Of a DNA stretch of 36,803 nt, positions 22,986 to 33,751 are shown piece by piece (the stretch's first letter is position 1; each line of letters begins with the position of its first letter). The DNA is from Bdellovibrionales bacterium. GTDB taxonomy: Bacteria; Bdellovibrionota; Bacteriovoracia; Bacteriovoracales; Bacteriovoracaceae. The notes under the pieces are model-generated. The model ran no database searches. It was given only the letters and a program-made list of their open reading frames with translations, and was not told the DNA's origin. The stretch covers positions 1-36,803 of the forward strand of contig JAHEZZ010000005.1 in the NCBI GenBank assembly GCA_023250815.1. Reading direction: 5' to 3'. A program made the position numbers and the translations under genes.

Positions 22986-25064
22986 TTAAGGATTAAATAT
23001 ACAGTCCGGCATTTGGTCTTTGTAGTTCAATCGGCTTCGGCGTCTTTCAAGCCCCGAGGGAAACCAAGCTTTTTCGACTATATTTACAAGAAGAGATTTT
23101 GAGCAGCTTACTATTTCACCATCCTTTACAACGGTATCGAAATATTCTTTTTTGCCTTTTAATAATTTATTTTTGTTAATTTCAAACTCCATACGATCAA
23201 AATTAATATCGAAATATTTAGCAATTGCTTGGCGAACTTCTTTCTTAGTTAAATTATATTTAATTGTTAATGGGTAAGAATCTTGAACTCCTGGAAACGT
23301 AATTCCAAATATTTTTGCCATACGAATTCTTCTATCCATTAATTTAAATACCAATGCATCTTGAACAAATTGAGGTAATTTACTTGCCGCCACTGCTTCT
23401 TTTATGTCTGATTCTTGTAGACTTGCAATCTTCATCGCCATCCAAAGTCCGTCGGAATAGGTAACTTTGTTCCAAGAATCTGGTTTGTAAAGATGAAGCC
23501 TTGGAACAACAATCCAAGTGTGTCCAAGAAACTCATAAGGAATTAAAAGTTTTGGGGAGTTTTTATATAAGCTTGTAGCAGTATACATAAAATCAGTATT
23601 CGTTTTTAAACTATTTATTTTTCCAGGATAAATCGTACTACCAAGTGCAGAACCCAGATCATGCCAATAGTGAACGAAAACATCTTTGCCATTTTCTTCA
23701 CTTAAAACGCTTCGTGAATTATCTTCTTTAGCATCGTCGTTTCCAACCCAACTAGCAAGTAAAGAAAGTCCCCTGAGAACTCGATCATTTTCAAAGCCCA
23801 ATCTGTTTTCTGGGCCAGAACCGACTTTGGGTAAAACATTTTCAGCATTAAATTCAACTAAGCTTTCTTTGAATGTAACCCAAGTTCGTCCTATATATTT
23901 TGCTCTTATTTTAGGGTCTTTGATTATTGAAGCGGCCCCATTGAAAATTGAATCAAGGTTTTCTCCTGTAATTATGCCGGTCTGAGCTATGTAGGGTGAT
24001 GGATTAAATTCATAAATTGAAGTTTTCATACAATAAAGAAACCATTCGTAATTATTAATGTTATGGCATGAGCTTTTCTCCCCCATTGATCCTAAAATTA
24101 AAAGAAGATCGGATGAACCGTGAGTGTTCGTGTAGGTTATTTCGCTAAATTTTCCACCTAACTTCATATAAAGTCGGCCGACCACTGACTCAACAAAGGC
24201 CTCAACTCCCCATTTAATTTTCCAGTTAAAGCCATAGAGGTCTTTACCTTCAATCTTTGGACTGGTGGCAGAGGTTTTCACTTTCTCAAAAATTAATATT
24301 TTTTTAGCAATTTTAAGATCGTATTTATTTTCTAGTGAAGTACATAGATCTTTGCATCTTTTTGAGAATTTTTTTGTCGCCTTGGCATTCATCATATTTT
24401 CTAGTTTTCCCCAGGCCCCTTCTTTTGTCCATTCGGTCTTTTCTAAGTCTTCCTGGTTTCTCCACATCTGATGATTCTTTCCAATATCTAGCTTTGCAAC
24501 TTGAATGTAATTTAGATTTGTAAGTTCTTTTGGAGTATAAACTTTTTTAGTAAGAGGATTTACGAGGTTGCTAGCTTCACTTTGCGCTTGCTCAATGGTT
24601 AATTTTTTAAGACGATCTTTTGGACTTTTATAGGGAATGGTGATGACGCCATTTCCAATCATGCCCACCCAATCTTTAATGCTCATTTGGCTTATGGGAA
24701 ATTTATCTGTGAATATTGCATAAATAATTGATCGGGCCAAATTGAAACTTTCCACTTTCAAATAATCAGAGCACGTTAAATTTTTAGTAAAAAGGAGATG
24801 CTCCATTGCAGTTGAATAAAATTTAGAATAGTTTTTTCTTTTTTCTTTTTTATCATATTCTTCGGACATTTCTTCTTGGTTGTTTTCTGTTTCAAGCTCA
24901 CTTACATATTTAAACAAATTATTAAACGACATCTCAGTACAGGCATCTTCAACACCATTTTTTTCTAAAATATTTTGAGCGGGTTTATAGGAAACACGAT
25001 CAAATTTTGCATGTGCTATATTGGCCACAAAAAATGAACACATCATGGACAAAAAAAATTTCAT
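22986..25064 (-). CDS. Secreted 692-residue protein with possible atypical kinase fold
   Basis: A Sec signal peptide is clear (MKFF, hydrophobic core LSMMCSFFVANIAHA, AxA cleavage near residue 19). The mature protein is mixed alpha/beta. Segments that recall atypical kinases (CotH, FAM20 and HipA-like) are FNWKIKWGVEAFVESVVGRL near 279-298 (candidate Lys and Glu pair), WVGNDDAKEDN at 439-449 (N-D-x4-N catalytic-loop like), and HDLGS near 468-472 (DFG-equivalent). I could not confirm homology; other possibilities include an unrelated hydrolase. Cysteines are few. The preceding gene, upstream on this strand, encodes a likely cysteine protease with its own signal peptide, 99 bases away. Confidence 0.7.
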   Translation of the reverse strand: MKFFLSMMCSFFVANIAHAKFDRVSYKPAQNILEKNGVEDACTEMSFNNLFKYVSELETENNQEEMSEEYDKKEKRKNYSKFYSTAMEHLLFTKNLTCSDYLKVESFNLARSIIYAIFTDKFPISQMSIKDWVGMIGNGVITIPYKSPKDRLKKLTIEQAQSEASNLVNPLTKKVYTPKELTNLNYIQVAKLDIGKNHQMWRNQEDLEKTEWTKEGAWGKLENMMNAKATKKFSKRCKDLCTSLENKYDLKIAKKILIFEKVKTSATSPKIEGKDLYGFNWKIKWGVEAFVESVVGRLYMKLGGKFSEITYTNTHGSSDLLLILGSMGEKSSCHNINNYEWFLYCMKTSIYEFNPSPYIAQTGIITGENLDSIFNGAASIIKDPKIRAKYIGRTWVTFKESLVEFNAENVLPKVGSGPENRLGFENDRVLRGLSLLASWVGNDDAKEDNSRSVLSEENGKDVFVHYWHDLGSALGSTIYPGKINSLKTNTDFMYTATSLYKNSPKLLIPYEFLGHTWIVVPRLHLYKPDSWNKVTYSDGLWMAMKIASLQESDIKEAVAASKLPQFVQDALVFKLMDRRIRMAKIFGITFPGVQDSYPLTIKYNLTKKEVRQAIAKYFDINFDRMEFEINKNKLLKGKKEYFDTVVKDGEIVSCSKSLLVNIVEKAWFPSGLERRRSRLNYKDQMPDCIFNP

Positions 25065-25163
25065 AAAGATCCCCTGGCGCTTAAATTAAGAGATTTTATT
25101 TAGCACACTTTGCCAGTAGTGGCGCCGTGAGCTGAAAAGGTTACATTTTTGAATTCAATTAAG

Positions 25164-25946
25164 CTAAAATTGATAACGTAAAATTAAATACCCAGGAAGG
25201 AATGGCGCATAGGTATCCCAAATACCGTATGACCATCTAACAAAAACGGAACAAGGAATTTTGAATTGATCGTCCCACTGATTGACAACCACAGTACAAG
25301 ATGAATTATTGCGATCGAGTAAATCGACAATGGTCAACCAGTGAGGAATTCGACCTCCTGGATTTCGAACTAAGGCCAAAACTGGGGATCTTAAAATTTC
25401 TTCTCCACCTTCTCTTGTTCTTCTTGTTAAATTTTTAAATGATGACTTGGGCGTTAGACCACTTTCAATAGAATCTAAAAAAGCATCTGAGTTTTTTGAT
25501 TTAACTGAAATCCATTTACCAGTCGGACAATGAGATCTATTATTCTCAAAAATTTTATTTATTCCATCAAGCATTGTTTTAGGGCGAACACCTGGAGTGA
25601 CATCTCCTAAAAAATAATTGGAGTAACTTTCTGGGTGTGCCGCCAAATGGCAATATGAGTATAGTAAATTTGAAGCAGCGGTTTGCCCACATCTTCCCTC
25701 ATTGTTAAAAACTCCTTGTGATGATGGTTGAATAAAAGAAACAGTACCGTCTTTACAACGTCTAAGACTATTATTTCTTAAATCTAATTCATTTGAAACT
25801 GTATCTTTAACTTCAAGACAATTGTCAGTTATATAATCTCGAGCGCTACCAGGGTTTAGAGTGTCTTTATTTGACTCTGCATTTGAAACAGAACTTAAAA
25901 AAATAAAAAGCAATATAACCGCAGAGGAATAAACACGTACAACCAT
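25164..25946 (-). CDS. Secreted papain-like cysteine protease candidate (C39/papain-like fold)
   Basis: About 260 residues with an N-terminal signal peptide (VVRVYSSAVILLFIFLSSVSNA). Residues NEGRCGQTAASNLLYSY (Cys86) match the nucleophile region of papain/C39-type folds, where a Gly/Gln-flanked Cys starts the first helix. PGGRIPHWLTIVDLL (His202) and VNQWDDQ (Asn222/Asp225) follow at the spacing expected for the His and Asn/Asp members. Role could be protein processing or peptide degradation in the envelope or outside. The ATG at 25946 has AAGGG 8 bases upstream; a TTG at 25964 is the other in-frame start. It is likely a separate unit from the downstream 692-residue protein, since a 99-base gap lies between them. 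Confidence 0.65.
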   Translation of the reverse strand: MVVRVYSSAVILLFIFLSSVSNAESNKDTLNPGSARDYITDNCLEVKDTVSNELDLRNNSLRRCKDGTVSFIQPSSQGVFNNEGRCGQTAASNLLYSYCHLAAHPESYSNYFLGDVTPGVRPKTMLDGINKIFENNRSHCPTGKWISVKSKNSDAFLDSIESGLTPKSSFKNLTRRTREGGEEILRSPVLALVRNPGGRIPHWLTIVDLLDRNNSSCTVVVNQWDDQFKIPCSVFVRWSYGIWDTYAPFLPGYLILRYQF

Positions 25947-25992
25947 TAAAATATCCCTTAACAAGGCAATAGGGGATGTATAACTATTTGTG

Positions 25993-30055: not shown

Positions 30056-33000
30056 TTAAAAGTAGGCAGTGCCTAGAAAAATTGATTTTTCTTGAACCCC
30101 AGGATCTTTTAAAAAAGGGGGTGAGGTTGAGTCGGTAAATATCCAAGTGTATCCAGATGAACTATATATATCGTCGGCAATACTCCAGGCATAAGAACAA
30201 ATTCCAGAAGGGGCCATAAAATACCCGCTACTTAAACTATAAGTGTATGAAGAAACGCAGCCTGGGCCAATGGCCCCTTTATAAAGAGATCCTGAGGGAC
30301 TTGACCAACTGGCCGTTGTTGTCACCTGGGTAGGTGAATCGACGCTGGCAATTGCTCGACATTGTGTTCCCACGCAAATGATGTCCCCTGTATTTAGTTC
30401 TGTATTAAAAGCGGTTGCAGCTCCCGTAAGAGTCGTGACATTGGCCATACTAAGAGTACCACTCAGTGAAGTTTGTGAACTGTCGTGACAAAAATTTTCA
30501 GTAGAAGTTCCACTATTCGTTATAATCGTTCCGTTGTAATCAGTTGGCATAGCATTACTTAAATAATTTTGACCGTAAGTATTTTTATAAAAACTTCGGC
30601 GGACAGTACTGCCGGAAGAATTAGTATATGCCAGACCTGCGATTGAACCATTAAAATAAGATAAATTGGAACCTAGAGATGAGACGGAATCGGTAATCAG
30701 TCCATTGTTGTTATAGACCAGTCCAGAAATTTTTCCCCCGGCAGCAGTAGAGGTATTCACAATTTGCAAATACCCTCTGGCGTCAACTTGATTAATAATT
30801 CCAGCGCTATTGTTAAAAGCGGTAACTCCGCTATAGAAATGAGTAGCAGTAGAATTAAATCCCACAGTCACTGAATTATACAGGAGTTCAAAGGCCGAAA
30901 TGCTGTTTAAAATAGTTCCTGAATTGCTATAGATCATTCCCGAAGTATAAAAACTTCCAGTCGCACCACTATTATCTATTTTTGATTCTAAAAGAAAAGA
31001 GCTGTAACTATTTTGAATAGTGCCGCTATTTAAATTAGCAATACCTGAAAGATACACGCTGTTACTTGTAATGTGTACATCAACAAATTTCATCAAATGC
31101 CCAAAACTCTCTACTTTATCAATAGTTCCTACATTGCTATCGGCGAGAATTGAGACATTTGGTGAGGAGGTAAGCGCCGAGGCAGCAAAATCAACAGTAA
31201 AACCTCCCAGCTTCAAATTTTTAATTACCGAACCAGAATTTAAGGAATCAAAAATAGATAACTTTGTTGTCGCCGCATTTCCGGTAAAACTAAGGCCGTA
31301 AATTCCACGATTATCACCATCTAAATGATAAACGCCGGAACTAAAAATAGGAGAAGATTTAGCTGAGGACCCTTCATAAACAATATCATTTTTTAAAATA
31401 TAGTAACTGCTGGTACTCATTGCCTCAAACTGGGTAATGGTACATACCCAATAAGGAGAAGCAGAAGTTCCCGCTCCTACTGCTGTTGTAAAAAGTCCCG
31501 AACATGGCCTTTTTAAATAAGGGACTTTATTTTCAATCGCCAGTTCAAAAGAAAGCCGGGGATAATCATAAGTATCATTGGCCGAAGCAAGTACCCACGT
31601 TTTTGTTCCGTCATTGGAATAATAGGTTGATCCAAAACTGCTAGAATAAATAGAATGCAATTTTAAATTGGCCTGAGTAGCATAGGTGCCACAACCTGCG
31701 GCCGCATTGCCATCCCAAGCTCCTGAGGTATTATTACTGCTGCTAAAATAGGAATTGCTGCCAACATTGGCGCAACCTGATGTGGCATTGCCTATTAATC
31801 CTCCAGCGTAAGCTCCATTCTCTTCTGACCAATCTAAATCAGAATCTCTTCTTTTAAAATCTATCAAAACAGCTGGCGCAATCGTTCGATGCATACTTGG
31901 AATACTTCCTAAAGAGCCAACAATACCGCCAATGTCTGCATATTTATCATAAATATTATTCCCTCTCAGTGTGCCCATAAAATAAGTATCTTCAATGGTA
32001 CTTCCCGATGGGCCCAAAAAACTTCCAATTATTCCGCCGATCATTTTATTGCCACTTAAATTTGCTCTGGCGGCAACTTTGGTGATTGTAGTTGTTGCAG
32101 TGGAAGATTTTCCCACGACTCCGCCAACACAGCTGTCGACGTTGCCACTCCTATCACTATCGACATAGGCCCTAACGCTTGACTCTGTTATATTAACCGA
32201 ACCATCGCTGATAGTTCCGATCAGTCCGCCTAGGTTAACTCCTCCATTAATCACAGCATAAGCATGAACTTGAGTAAAATTTAAATCTTGTTTAACTTCA
32301 CCTATCAATCCACCGACGTTATCCTCACCGTCTATTTTAGAATGCACAAAAATATTTTTAATCACTGAACTCGTTCCTCCAGCGGCCCCCGCAATACTTC
32401 CAATTTTTTGGCAATAAATGGGGGTAGAGCTATTGCTGTCGGTGCAGTTTATTTCCATTCGATCAATGGTTAAATTTTTAACTTCAGCATTGGCGGTCAT
32501 CTGCCTGAAAATTCCCAAAAAATTATTATTTGTAACTTTTAAATAAACATTAGAAATTTTGTGATTGGCCCCTTCAAAAACTGCGGCATAAGAATGACTA
32601 GGGTCAGTGGCAGAACCATGATTTTCTAAAGATGTGAAGGCATCGCCAATGGGTGTAAGAGCATTAGCTGTGCCTAAAAAATCTAAATCAGCTGCCAATC
32701 TAAAATGTTTATTAACAATGCTGGAAAAACCGCTTCCGCCGATTTGATTGAATTGAGTTTTATTGCAAAGAACATAGGGGCGTGAAGCAACTCCAGTTCC
32801 TCCAGAAAATTCCTGAGCAAGAGTTTTAGCAGTACGGGTACCGGACGAGCATATGTCGTTGTCGCTGACACTCAAAAATAATTGTGTCGTATAAGTAGAA
32901 GAGGAATAATTTGTATAAAATTTTGAGCCAGAGATAATATTGTTTAGGCCATTTCTAAAAAAATATTCCCTACCTGCCCCGTTATCCGTTTCACAGGCCC

Positions 33001-33751
33001 AGCGCCCATAAAAACCAGTGACTGAGGTGCTTAAGGGTATGGCCGAATTTCCTTGAGGTATATTAAGGGAGCTGCTGGCCATACTGTCGTCGGGAGCAGT
33101 AGTGCTACTTATTGACTGACAAGTGGATTCGATACTCCCAAAAGTATTATAGTTGCCTTCTTTTTGCATAAATTCTCTGAAGGCGACTTTGAATGAACCA
33201 AAATGTCCTTTATTTGAACGATCAGTTGAAGATGAACACTTACTTTGATCTCCGTAAGCACTGACACCGCTAATGTCGATACAGTTGACTATATTGGTAT
33301 CGGCAAATGAATAAACTCCCGAAATATTTTGATTGAGAGAAACTGGTGACCACATACCATTATTACAATTAGCATTTGAAAGAGTTAAAGAGACATTTAA
33401 ATTTGCCCCATTCAAATTAACTTCAGGGCCGTCAGCACATCTCACCACTCCCTCAAAATTTCCTGGGCCCTCCCAAGCGATCGCAAAAAATTTCCATTTA
33501 CCATTGCTCAGTGGAAGAATGGGGTCGTGAGCCCCGGCAGCAATTATTTTGCCAAAAGATTCAAAACCACCGGCGGTTTTTAACCCATAAAGCACGATCC
33601 CGCCGGCGCCTTTAGAGGTATCGATAATTTTATTTAAATTGAGACTAATGGCAGTACTCGTTACTTTTTCGTTTTTACCAGCGCAAGAAGAGAGCAAAAT
33701 AATTGCCAAAATATAAAAATAAGATTCTTTAAAAAATGCTAAGCTTTTCAT
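30056..33751 (-). CDS. Large GLUG-repeat lipoprotein, probable surface protein
   Basis: 1231 residues, with lipobox LLSSC at about residues 19-23 (Cys23). The body is rich in Ser/Thr/Asn/Gly and contains a GLUG-type repeat series from about 445 to 700 (for example DNVGGLIGE, VNLGGLIGT, CVGGVVGK, MIGGIIGS, IGGIVGS, AGGLIGN). This gives a beta-helix-like fold found in adhesins and surface proteins. Two similar modules with G-GT-x-PY-x-C-x(3)-FNQ or FEAM segments occur near 316-345 and 760-785. Anchoring to the outer membrane and contact with surfaces or prey/host is inferred. The SD (GAAGGG) lies in a small hairpin with the start codon nearby. It ends 15 bases after the convergent membrane-protein gene. 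Confidence 0.85.
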   Translation of the reverse strand: MKSLAFFKESYFYILAIILLSSCAGKNEKVTSTAISLNLNKIIDTSKGAGGIVLYGLKTAGGFESFGKIIAAGAHDPILPLSNGKWKFFAIAWEGPGNFEGVVRCADGPEVNLNGANLNVSLTLSNANCNNGMWSPVSLNQNISGVYSFADTNIVNCIDISGVSAYGDQSKCSSSTDRSNKGHFGSFKVAFREFMQKEGNYNTFGSIESTCQSISSTTAPDDSMASSSLNIPQGNSAIPLSTSVTGFYGRWACETDNGAGREYFFRNGLNNIISGSKFYTNYSSSTYTTQLFLSVSDNDICSSGTRTAKTLAQEFSGGTGVASRPYVLCNKTQFNQIGGSGFSSIVNKHFRLAADLDFLGTANALTPIGDAFTSLENHGSATDPSHSYAAVFEGANHKISNVYLKVTNNNFLGIFRQMTANAEVKNLTIDRMEINCTDSNSSTPIYCQKIGSIAGAAGGTSSVIKNIFVHSKIDGEDNVGGLIGEVKQDLNFTQVHAYAVINGGVNLGGLIGTISDGSVNITESSVRAYVDSDRSGNVDSCVGGVVGKSSTATTTITKVAARANLSGNKMIGGIIGSFLGPSGSTIEDTYFMGTLRGNNIYDKYADIGGIVGSLGSIPSMHRTIAPAVLIDFKRRDSDLDWSEENGAYAGGLIGNATSGCANVGSNSYFSSSNNTSGAWDGNAAAGCGTYATQANLKLHSIYSSSFGSTYYSNDGTKTWVLASANDTYDYPRLSFELAIENKVPYLKRPCSGLFTTAVGAGTSASPYWVCTITQFEAMSTSSYYILKNDIVYEGSSAKSSPIFSSGVYHLDGDNRGIYGLSFTGNAATTKLSIFDSLNSGSVIKNLKLGGFTVDFAASALTSSPNVSILADSNVGTIDKVESFGHLMKFVDVHITSNSVYLSGIANLNSGTIQNSYSSFLLESKIDNSGATGSFYTSGMIYSNSGTILNSISAFELLYNSVTVGFNSTATHFYSGVTAFNNSAGIINQVDARGYLQIVNTSTAAGGKISGLVYNNNGLITDSVSSLGSNLSYFNGSIAGLAYTNSSGSTVRRSFYKNTYGQNYLSNAMPTDYNGTIITNSGTSTENFCHDSSQTSLSGTLSMANVTTLTGAATAFNTELNTGDIICVGTQCRAIASVDSPTQVTTTASWSSPSGSLYKGAIGPGCVSSYTYSLSSGYFMAPSGICSYAWSIADDIYSSSGYTWIFTDSTSPPFLKDPGVQEKSIFLGTAYF

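Follow-up and report, generated by a model that had tools for sequence, protein, structure and literature searches.

FAM20C is a Golgi casein kinase that acts in the secretory pathway, and CtkA, HipA and HipT are atypical Ser/Thr kinases of bacteria. In protein kinases the catalytic loop reads HRDLKxxN; some proteins with a kinase fold are instead AMPylases (SelO) or glutamylases (SidJ). To our knowledge, few exported bacterial kinases have been described, and phosphorylation outside the cytoplasm raises the question of where the ATP originates. The Legionella pan-kinome (PMC9758233), in which divergent bacterial PKL families were found computationally and some grouped with FAM20 and CotH, shows that bacteria do contain such families.

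The gene studied here lies in a stretch of 36,803 nucleotides of contig JAHEZZ010000005.1 from a Bdellovibrionales bacterium (the window). As judged from sequence and predicted structure, its 692-residue product is probably an active member of an uncatalogued family of exported atypical kinases, a divergent family of the same kind, by description, as those of Legionella (PMC9758233) but in a different lineage. The gene and the elements that bear on export are as follows.

22986..25064, minus strand: the whole gene, encoding the predicted exported atypical kinase-like protein of 692 residues (open reading frame, homologues, AlphaFold2 model)
25070..25075, minus strand: ribosome-binding site AGGGGA, five bases 5' of the ATG (read from the sequence)
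25008..25064, minus strand: Sec signal peptide, residues 1-19, with cleavage predicted between AHA and K (hydrophobic N-terminus and AxA site)
24030..24068, minus strand: C333 and C345, which probably form a disulfide

The open reading frame starts with ATG. As the preliminary description had claimed, a signal peptide was found at the N-terminus: the leader, MKFFLSMMCSFFVANIAHA followed by KF, is of the Sec/signal-peptidase-I type, with its hydrophobicity maximum at residues 4-13, and most homologues carry N-terminal leaders as well. The pairing of C333 with C345 is our assignment; a second disulfide probably links C654 to C688. All four cysteines are conserved in 14/14 Bdellovibrionota members of the alignment described below and are mostly missing from its Riflebacteria branch. 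Together, the signal peptide and these conserved cysteines support export of the protein.

Does sequence place the protein in a described kinase family? Searches of Pfam, NCBIfam, PHROGs and PDB sequences returned no usable match, and no profile from Pfam, NCBIfam, PDB sequences or hhalign tied it to a known kinase family. The Pfam profiles for CotH (PF08757) and HipA_C (PF07804) matched neither this protein nor the ten members of a family alignment. With hhalign, the probabilities against a CotH set from related genomes and against a HipA set were 0.2% and 0.3%, respectively, in a comparison of low power, as CotH vs. HipA also fails. Titles and abstract beginnings in the literature on Bdellovibrio kinases contain no description of the family. 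By Pfam profile the family is distinct from CotH and HipA; its predicted fold, and probably its way of working, are like those of the FAM20C/PI4KII/HipA group. Genes for CotH (two) and for HipA (one) are present separately in the source genome. The two true CotH kinases are encoded at L134 (G000:C216) and G000:C93, and the genome thus carries several kinds of atypical kinase.

Residue conservation was assessed in an alignment of the protein with 17 homologues; the 18 sequences come from two phyla, Bdellovibrionota and Riflebacteria, and the homologues share 23-32% identity with the protein. The elements of the putative kinase core and its surroundings are given here.

24336..24986, minus strand: mainly helical domain N-terminal to the kinase core, residues 27-243 (AlphaFold2 secondary structure; present in homologues, poorly conserved)
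23259..24335, minus strand: kinase-like core, residues 244-602 (core AlphaFold2 model; the Foldseek matches are all kinase folds)
24255..24278, minus strand: K263-K270 (KTSATSPK), beta1/beta2 turn and, from its position, the putative P-loop equivalent (strands 256-263 and 270-275 in the model)
24207..24224, minus strand: W281-G286 (WKIKWG) in beta3 (strand 280-284), with the candidate ATP-binding lysines K282 and K284
24201..24203, minus strand: E288, the glutamate opening helix alphaC (helix 45-58 of the core model begins there; present in every covering sequence)
23718..23735, minus strand: predicted catalytic loop D444-A-K-E-D-N449 (D444 and N449 invariant in the 18 sequences; helix 428-440 before it, hairpin 450-467 after it)
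23652..23663, minus strand: H468-D469-L470-G471, predicted DFG-equivalent metal-binding motif (D469 and G471 invariant; after strand 460-467)
23295..23480, minus strand: helical module of the C-lobe, residues 529-590 (the PDSWNKVTYSDGLWMAMKIA...KLMDRR region), which is shared more widely in the superfamily than any other part (hmmsearch and hhalign to exported proteins of ~1000 residues)

The preliminary description had proposed kinase motifs of the Lys/Glu, catalytic-loop and DFG-like types, in that order. All three were located in that order: FNWKIKWGVEAFVESVVGRL at residues 279-298, WVGNDDAKEDN at 439-449 and HDLGS at 468-472. It had further named four residues whose invariance would bear on the proposal. 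These are indeed invariant (the lysine wherever it is covered), with one correction: the aspartate numbered 443 is D444. Only D427, D444, N449, D469 and G471 are invariant across the 18 sequences, in which mean column identity is 30%; K270, D275, W281, K282, K284 and E288 are identical in every covering row. This pattern of invariant columns, together with K282, K284 and E288, argues that the motifs are not due to chance. The middle motif is D444-x-K-x-x-N449, with K or R at the third position across the alignment, and the D-x-K/R-x-x-N spacing, read from sequence, is that of the protein-kinase catalytic loop. The conserved residues expected of the PKL superfamily are all present: ATP-site Lys (K282/K284), alphaC Glu (E288), catalytic Asp, Asn and metal Asp.

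Far relatives (510-1250 residues) are similar to the protein in a few stretches only, and most of them nevertheless keep K284, E288, D444, K446, D469 and G471; conservation is thus focused on the residues that a kinase requires. K284 is lost in just one covering relative, whereas K282 is replaced by L in the forms of ~510 residues. In the putative P-loop equivalent, K270 occurs in every covering row, and most close family members also have K263.

Structure prediction pointed the same way. With the 18-sequence alignment, AlphaFold2 modelled the whole protein at a mean pLDDT of 85.4 and a pTM of 0.89. The core modelled alone (residues 244-602) gave 84.3 and 0.85. In the modelled N-lobe, beta1 (256-263), the KTSATSPK turn, beta2 (270-275), beta3 (280-284), alphaC from E288 and further strands follow one another; toward the C-terminus come helix 428-440, the loop 444-449, the hairpin 450-457/460-467, D469-L-G471 and the helices of the C-lobe. 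This predicted order of elements matches that of a kinase.

The models were compared with the PDB using Foldseek. All 50 of the 50 matches listed for the core are kinases or kinase-fold proteins: FAM20C ranks first (E 1.2e-3, probability 0.99), PI4KII also has a probability of 0.99, and CtkA and HipA come next. The first ten matches of the whole model are FAM20C, CtkA, CotH and HipA (best E 0.044). Neither the core nor the whole model had a PDB match with E <0.001, and TM-scores among the matches listed were at most 0.46 and 0.51, respectively. On these values the modelled resemblance to kinases is distant, with large insertions, and the evidence lies in the consistency of the matches, not in any single score. 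A comparison with predicted viral proteins, with mostly kinases and unnamed proteins on top, adds little. The preliminary description had regarded two outcomes as damaging to its proposal, namely the lack of a kinase-like fold and the lack of conservation of the named residues. Both were checked; the core model resembles atypical kinases (FAM20C, PI4KII, CtkA and HipA at the top, CotH with the whole model), and the residues are conserved. We therefore regard an atypical-kinase fold as very probable. The opposite case, that the protein is no kinase at all and its motifs coincide by chance, could draw on core TM-scores <0.5 and on the missing sequence-level match to any kinase family. However, conservation sits exactly on kinase positions and the core structure search yields only kinase folds among the matches listed; this explanation is strongly disfavored and, in our judgment, exceedingly improbable.

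How close, then, are the individual relatives? FAM20C (PDB 4kqa/4kqb) is the best fold match, at rank 1 with both the core and the whole model. It shares large insertions in the core, and its secretory location parallels the signal peptide found here. Unlike FAM20C, the protein has a bacterial Sec leader and a helical N-terminal domain of ~220 residues; identity is about 10% with no profile match, and Pfam and PDB sequence searches gave no match that would show homology to FAM20. PI4-kinase type II (PDB 5i0n, 4hnd) is likewise matched in fold, but at 10-12% identity, and the present protein differs in being exported. CtkA, HipA and HipT are also fold matches; the protein differs from them in its export, in the lack of a HipB-type neighbor and in the missing hhalign match to HipA (a low-power test). 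CotH from B. cereus (5jd9) is matched by the whole model at rank 8 (E 0.24), whereas the protein has neither a Pfam nor a profile match to CotH (PF08757; low-power hhalign).

SidJ also appears among the Foldseek matches of the whole model, which is relevant to the reaction catalyzed. A kinase fold that performs some other ATP chemistry on extracytoplasmic proteins, such as SelO-like AMP transfer or SidJ-like glutamylation, would have precedent, as kinase folds are known to be repurposed (PMC6858067). The D-x-K-x-x-N loop and the DFG-like Asp are fully conserved, though, as expected for phosphotransfer, and we consider such chemistry improbable. Metal- and ATP-dependent phosphotransfer with D444 as the base is most likely. 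In this mechanism, the beta-turn K263-K270, K282/K284 of beta3, the alphaC-opening E288, N449 and D469 would bind ATP and metal; D444 would serve as the catalytic base; and the gamma-phosphate would pass to an extracytoplasmic protein, lipid or glycan, yielding a phosphate ester. We infer catalytic activity from these features and regard the protein as probably an active exported atypical kinase. Against an exported kinase stands the normal lack of available ATP outside the cytoplasm. Bacterial predators that live inside prey have access to prey ATP, and we conjecture that a predator inside a prey cell could draw on it.

Could the gene's surroundings indicate the substrate? It is flanked by genes for an exported cysteine-peptidase-like protein and a glycosyltransferase. 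No HipB-type antitoxin gene is adjacent, and the gene neighborhood is not conserved among the kinase homologues: the gene stands alone, without a conserved operon partner. The upstream neighbor (window 25164-25964, minus strand) encodes an exported protein of 266 residues whose motifs CGQTAASN, HWLTIVD and NQWD resemble those of a papain-fold C39-type cysteine peptidase; it has no significant Pfam match. Operon partnership with it was considered and rejected, as its homologues occur mostly in other genomes and none lies beside a kinase homologue. Given neighbors that are not conserved and a peptidase-like gene that is distributed differently, the genome offers no clue to the substrate. Envelope glycan genes are present elsewhere in the window, and these would suit a sub-case of the phosphotransferase reading: an exported kinase of lipids or sugars (compare PI4KII, FAM20B and WaaP) that acts on a lipid, LPS or glycan in place of a protein. 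Among the atypical-kinase folds PI4KII comes second, and WaaP ranks 49th among the core Foldseek matches listed, but the protein kinase FAM20C ranks first with the core and the neighboring genes are not conserved, so that we hold this sub-case possible though rather doubtful. Also in the window (30056-33751, minus strand) is a gene for a lipoprotein-type surface protein of 1231 residues with GLUG-like repeats (GGLIG..); it has no Pfam match, and it was rejected as a family member because it did not match the family profile.

The distribution of the family was examined by profile. A scan of genome contigs with the 692-residue protein alone found nothing, and an alignment query was needed. The alignment scan of GTDB genomes gave 18 loci, mostly in Bacteriovoracaceae/Bdellovibrionales MAGs; three are labelled Riflebacteria or Ozemobacteraceae, and a locus closely related to these three is labelled Methylomirabilis. 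The family is found mostly in predator-related Bdellovibrionota. Several genera among the relatives of the source genome have homologues of 590-790 residues at about 30-37% identity. Two more copies lie on contigs C94 and C55 of the source genome, and at least seven strong matches of the 590-790-residue class in one relative (G103) indicate expansion by paralogy in some genomes.

The core profile reached further, into 167 of 291 sampled Bdellovibrionota genomes. Most of these matches are to an exported protein of ~1000-1140 residues, usually one per genome, whose similarity is confined to the C-lobe module (TYADAxWMAxKIxxL...KLxxRRN; hhalign 98.8%, E 5e-17). It is without the catalytic loop and, on its sequence, is pseudokinase-like. 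The module lies at residues ~260-350 of these reading frames (L012, L016, L022, L077 and others). Such relatives with degraded active sites in the wider superfamily lend some weight to the idea that the 692-residue protein, too, is a pseudokinase or a non-catalytic ATP-binding scaffold. Within its own subfamily every catalytic residue is invariant, however, and we give this idea little credence; an active kinase is the reading that we prefer.

The family as a whole is uncatalogued, has both active-looking and degenerate branches, and lies in a phylum to which predators living inside prey belong. Since the protein is exported and kinase-like and the family occurs mostly in predator-related Bdellovibrionota, it may phosphorylate something outside the cell. 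A bolder proposal is that Bdellovibrionota predators export kinases that enter prey cells or act on them, and that these kinases phosphorylate components of the prey or of the bdelloplast with ATP taken from the prey; the relatives that are longer or degenerate, likewise derived from kinases, would belong to the same equipment of the predatory envelope. This we put forward as speculation that is unlikely to hold.

Several relatives depart from the 692-residue form. Forms of 1140-1200 residues occur in some Bdellovibrionota, and some of them keep the catalytic loop D-x-K-x-x-N, whereas in genome G189 a relative of 1165 residues (L112:399-3893, plus strand) has a partly degenerate loop (ISLQDQFEYQS). 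Two members of ~1150 residues stand head to head in a Halobacteriovorax-type genome (L121:2061-5561, minus strand, and L121:5682-9140, plus strand); in one of them the catalytic Asp is replaced by Asn (NTNLKKGENN), as if they were an active/inactive pair. In another genus, members of ~600-630 residues (L116:266-2059, plus strand, and L119:716-2599, minus strand) have intact catalytic loops and lipoprotein-type leaders (..IGC, ..AAC), which suggests membrane-anchored kinases.
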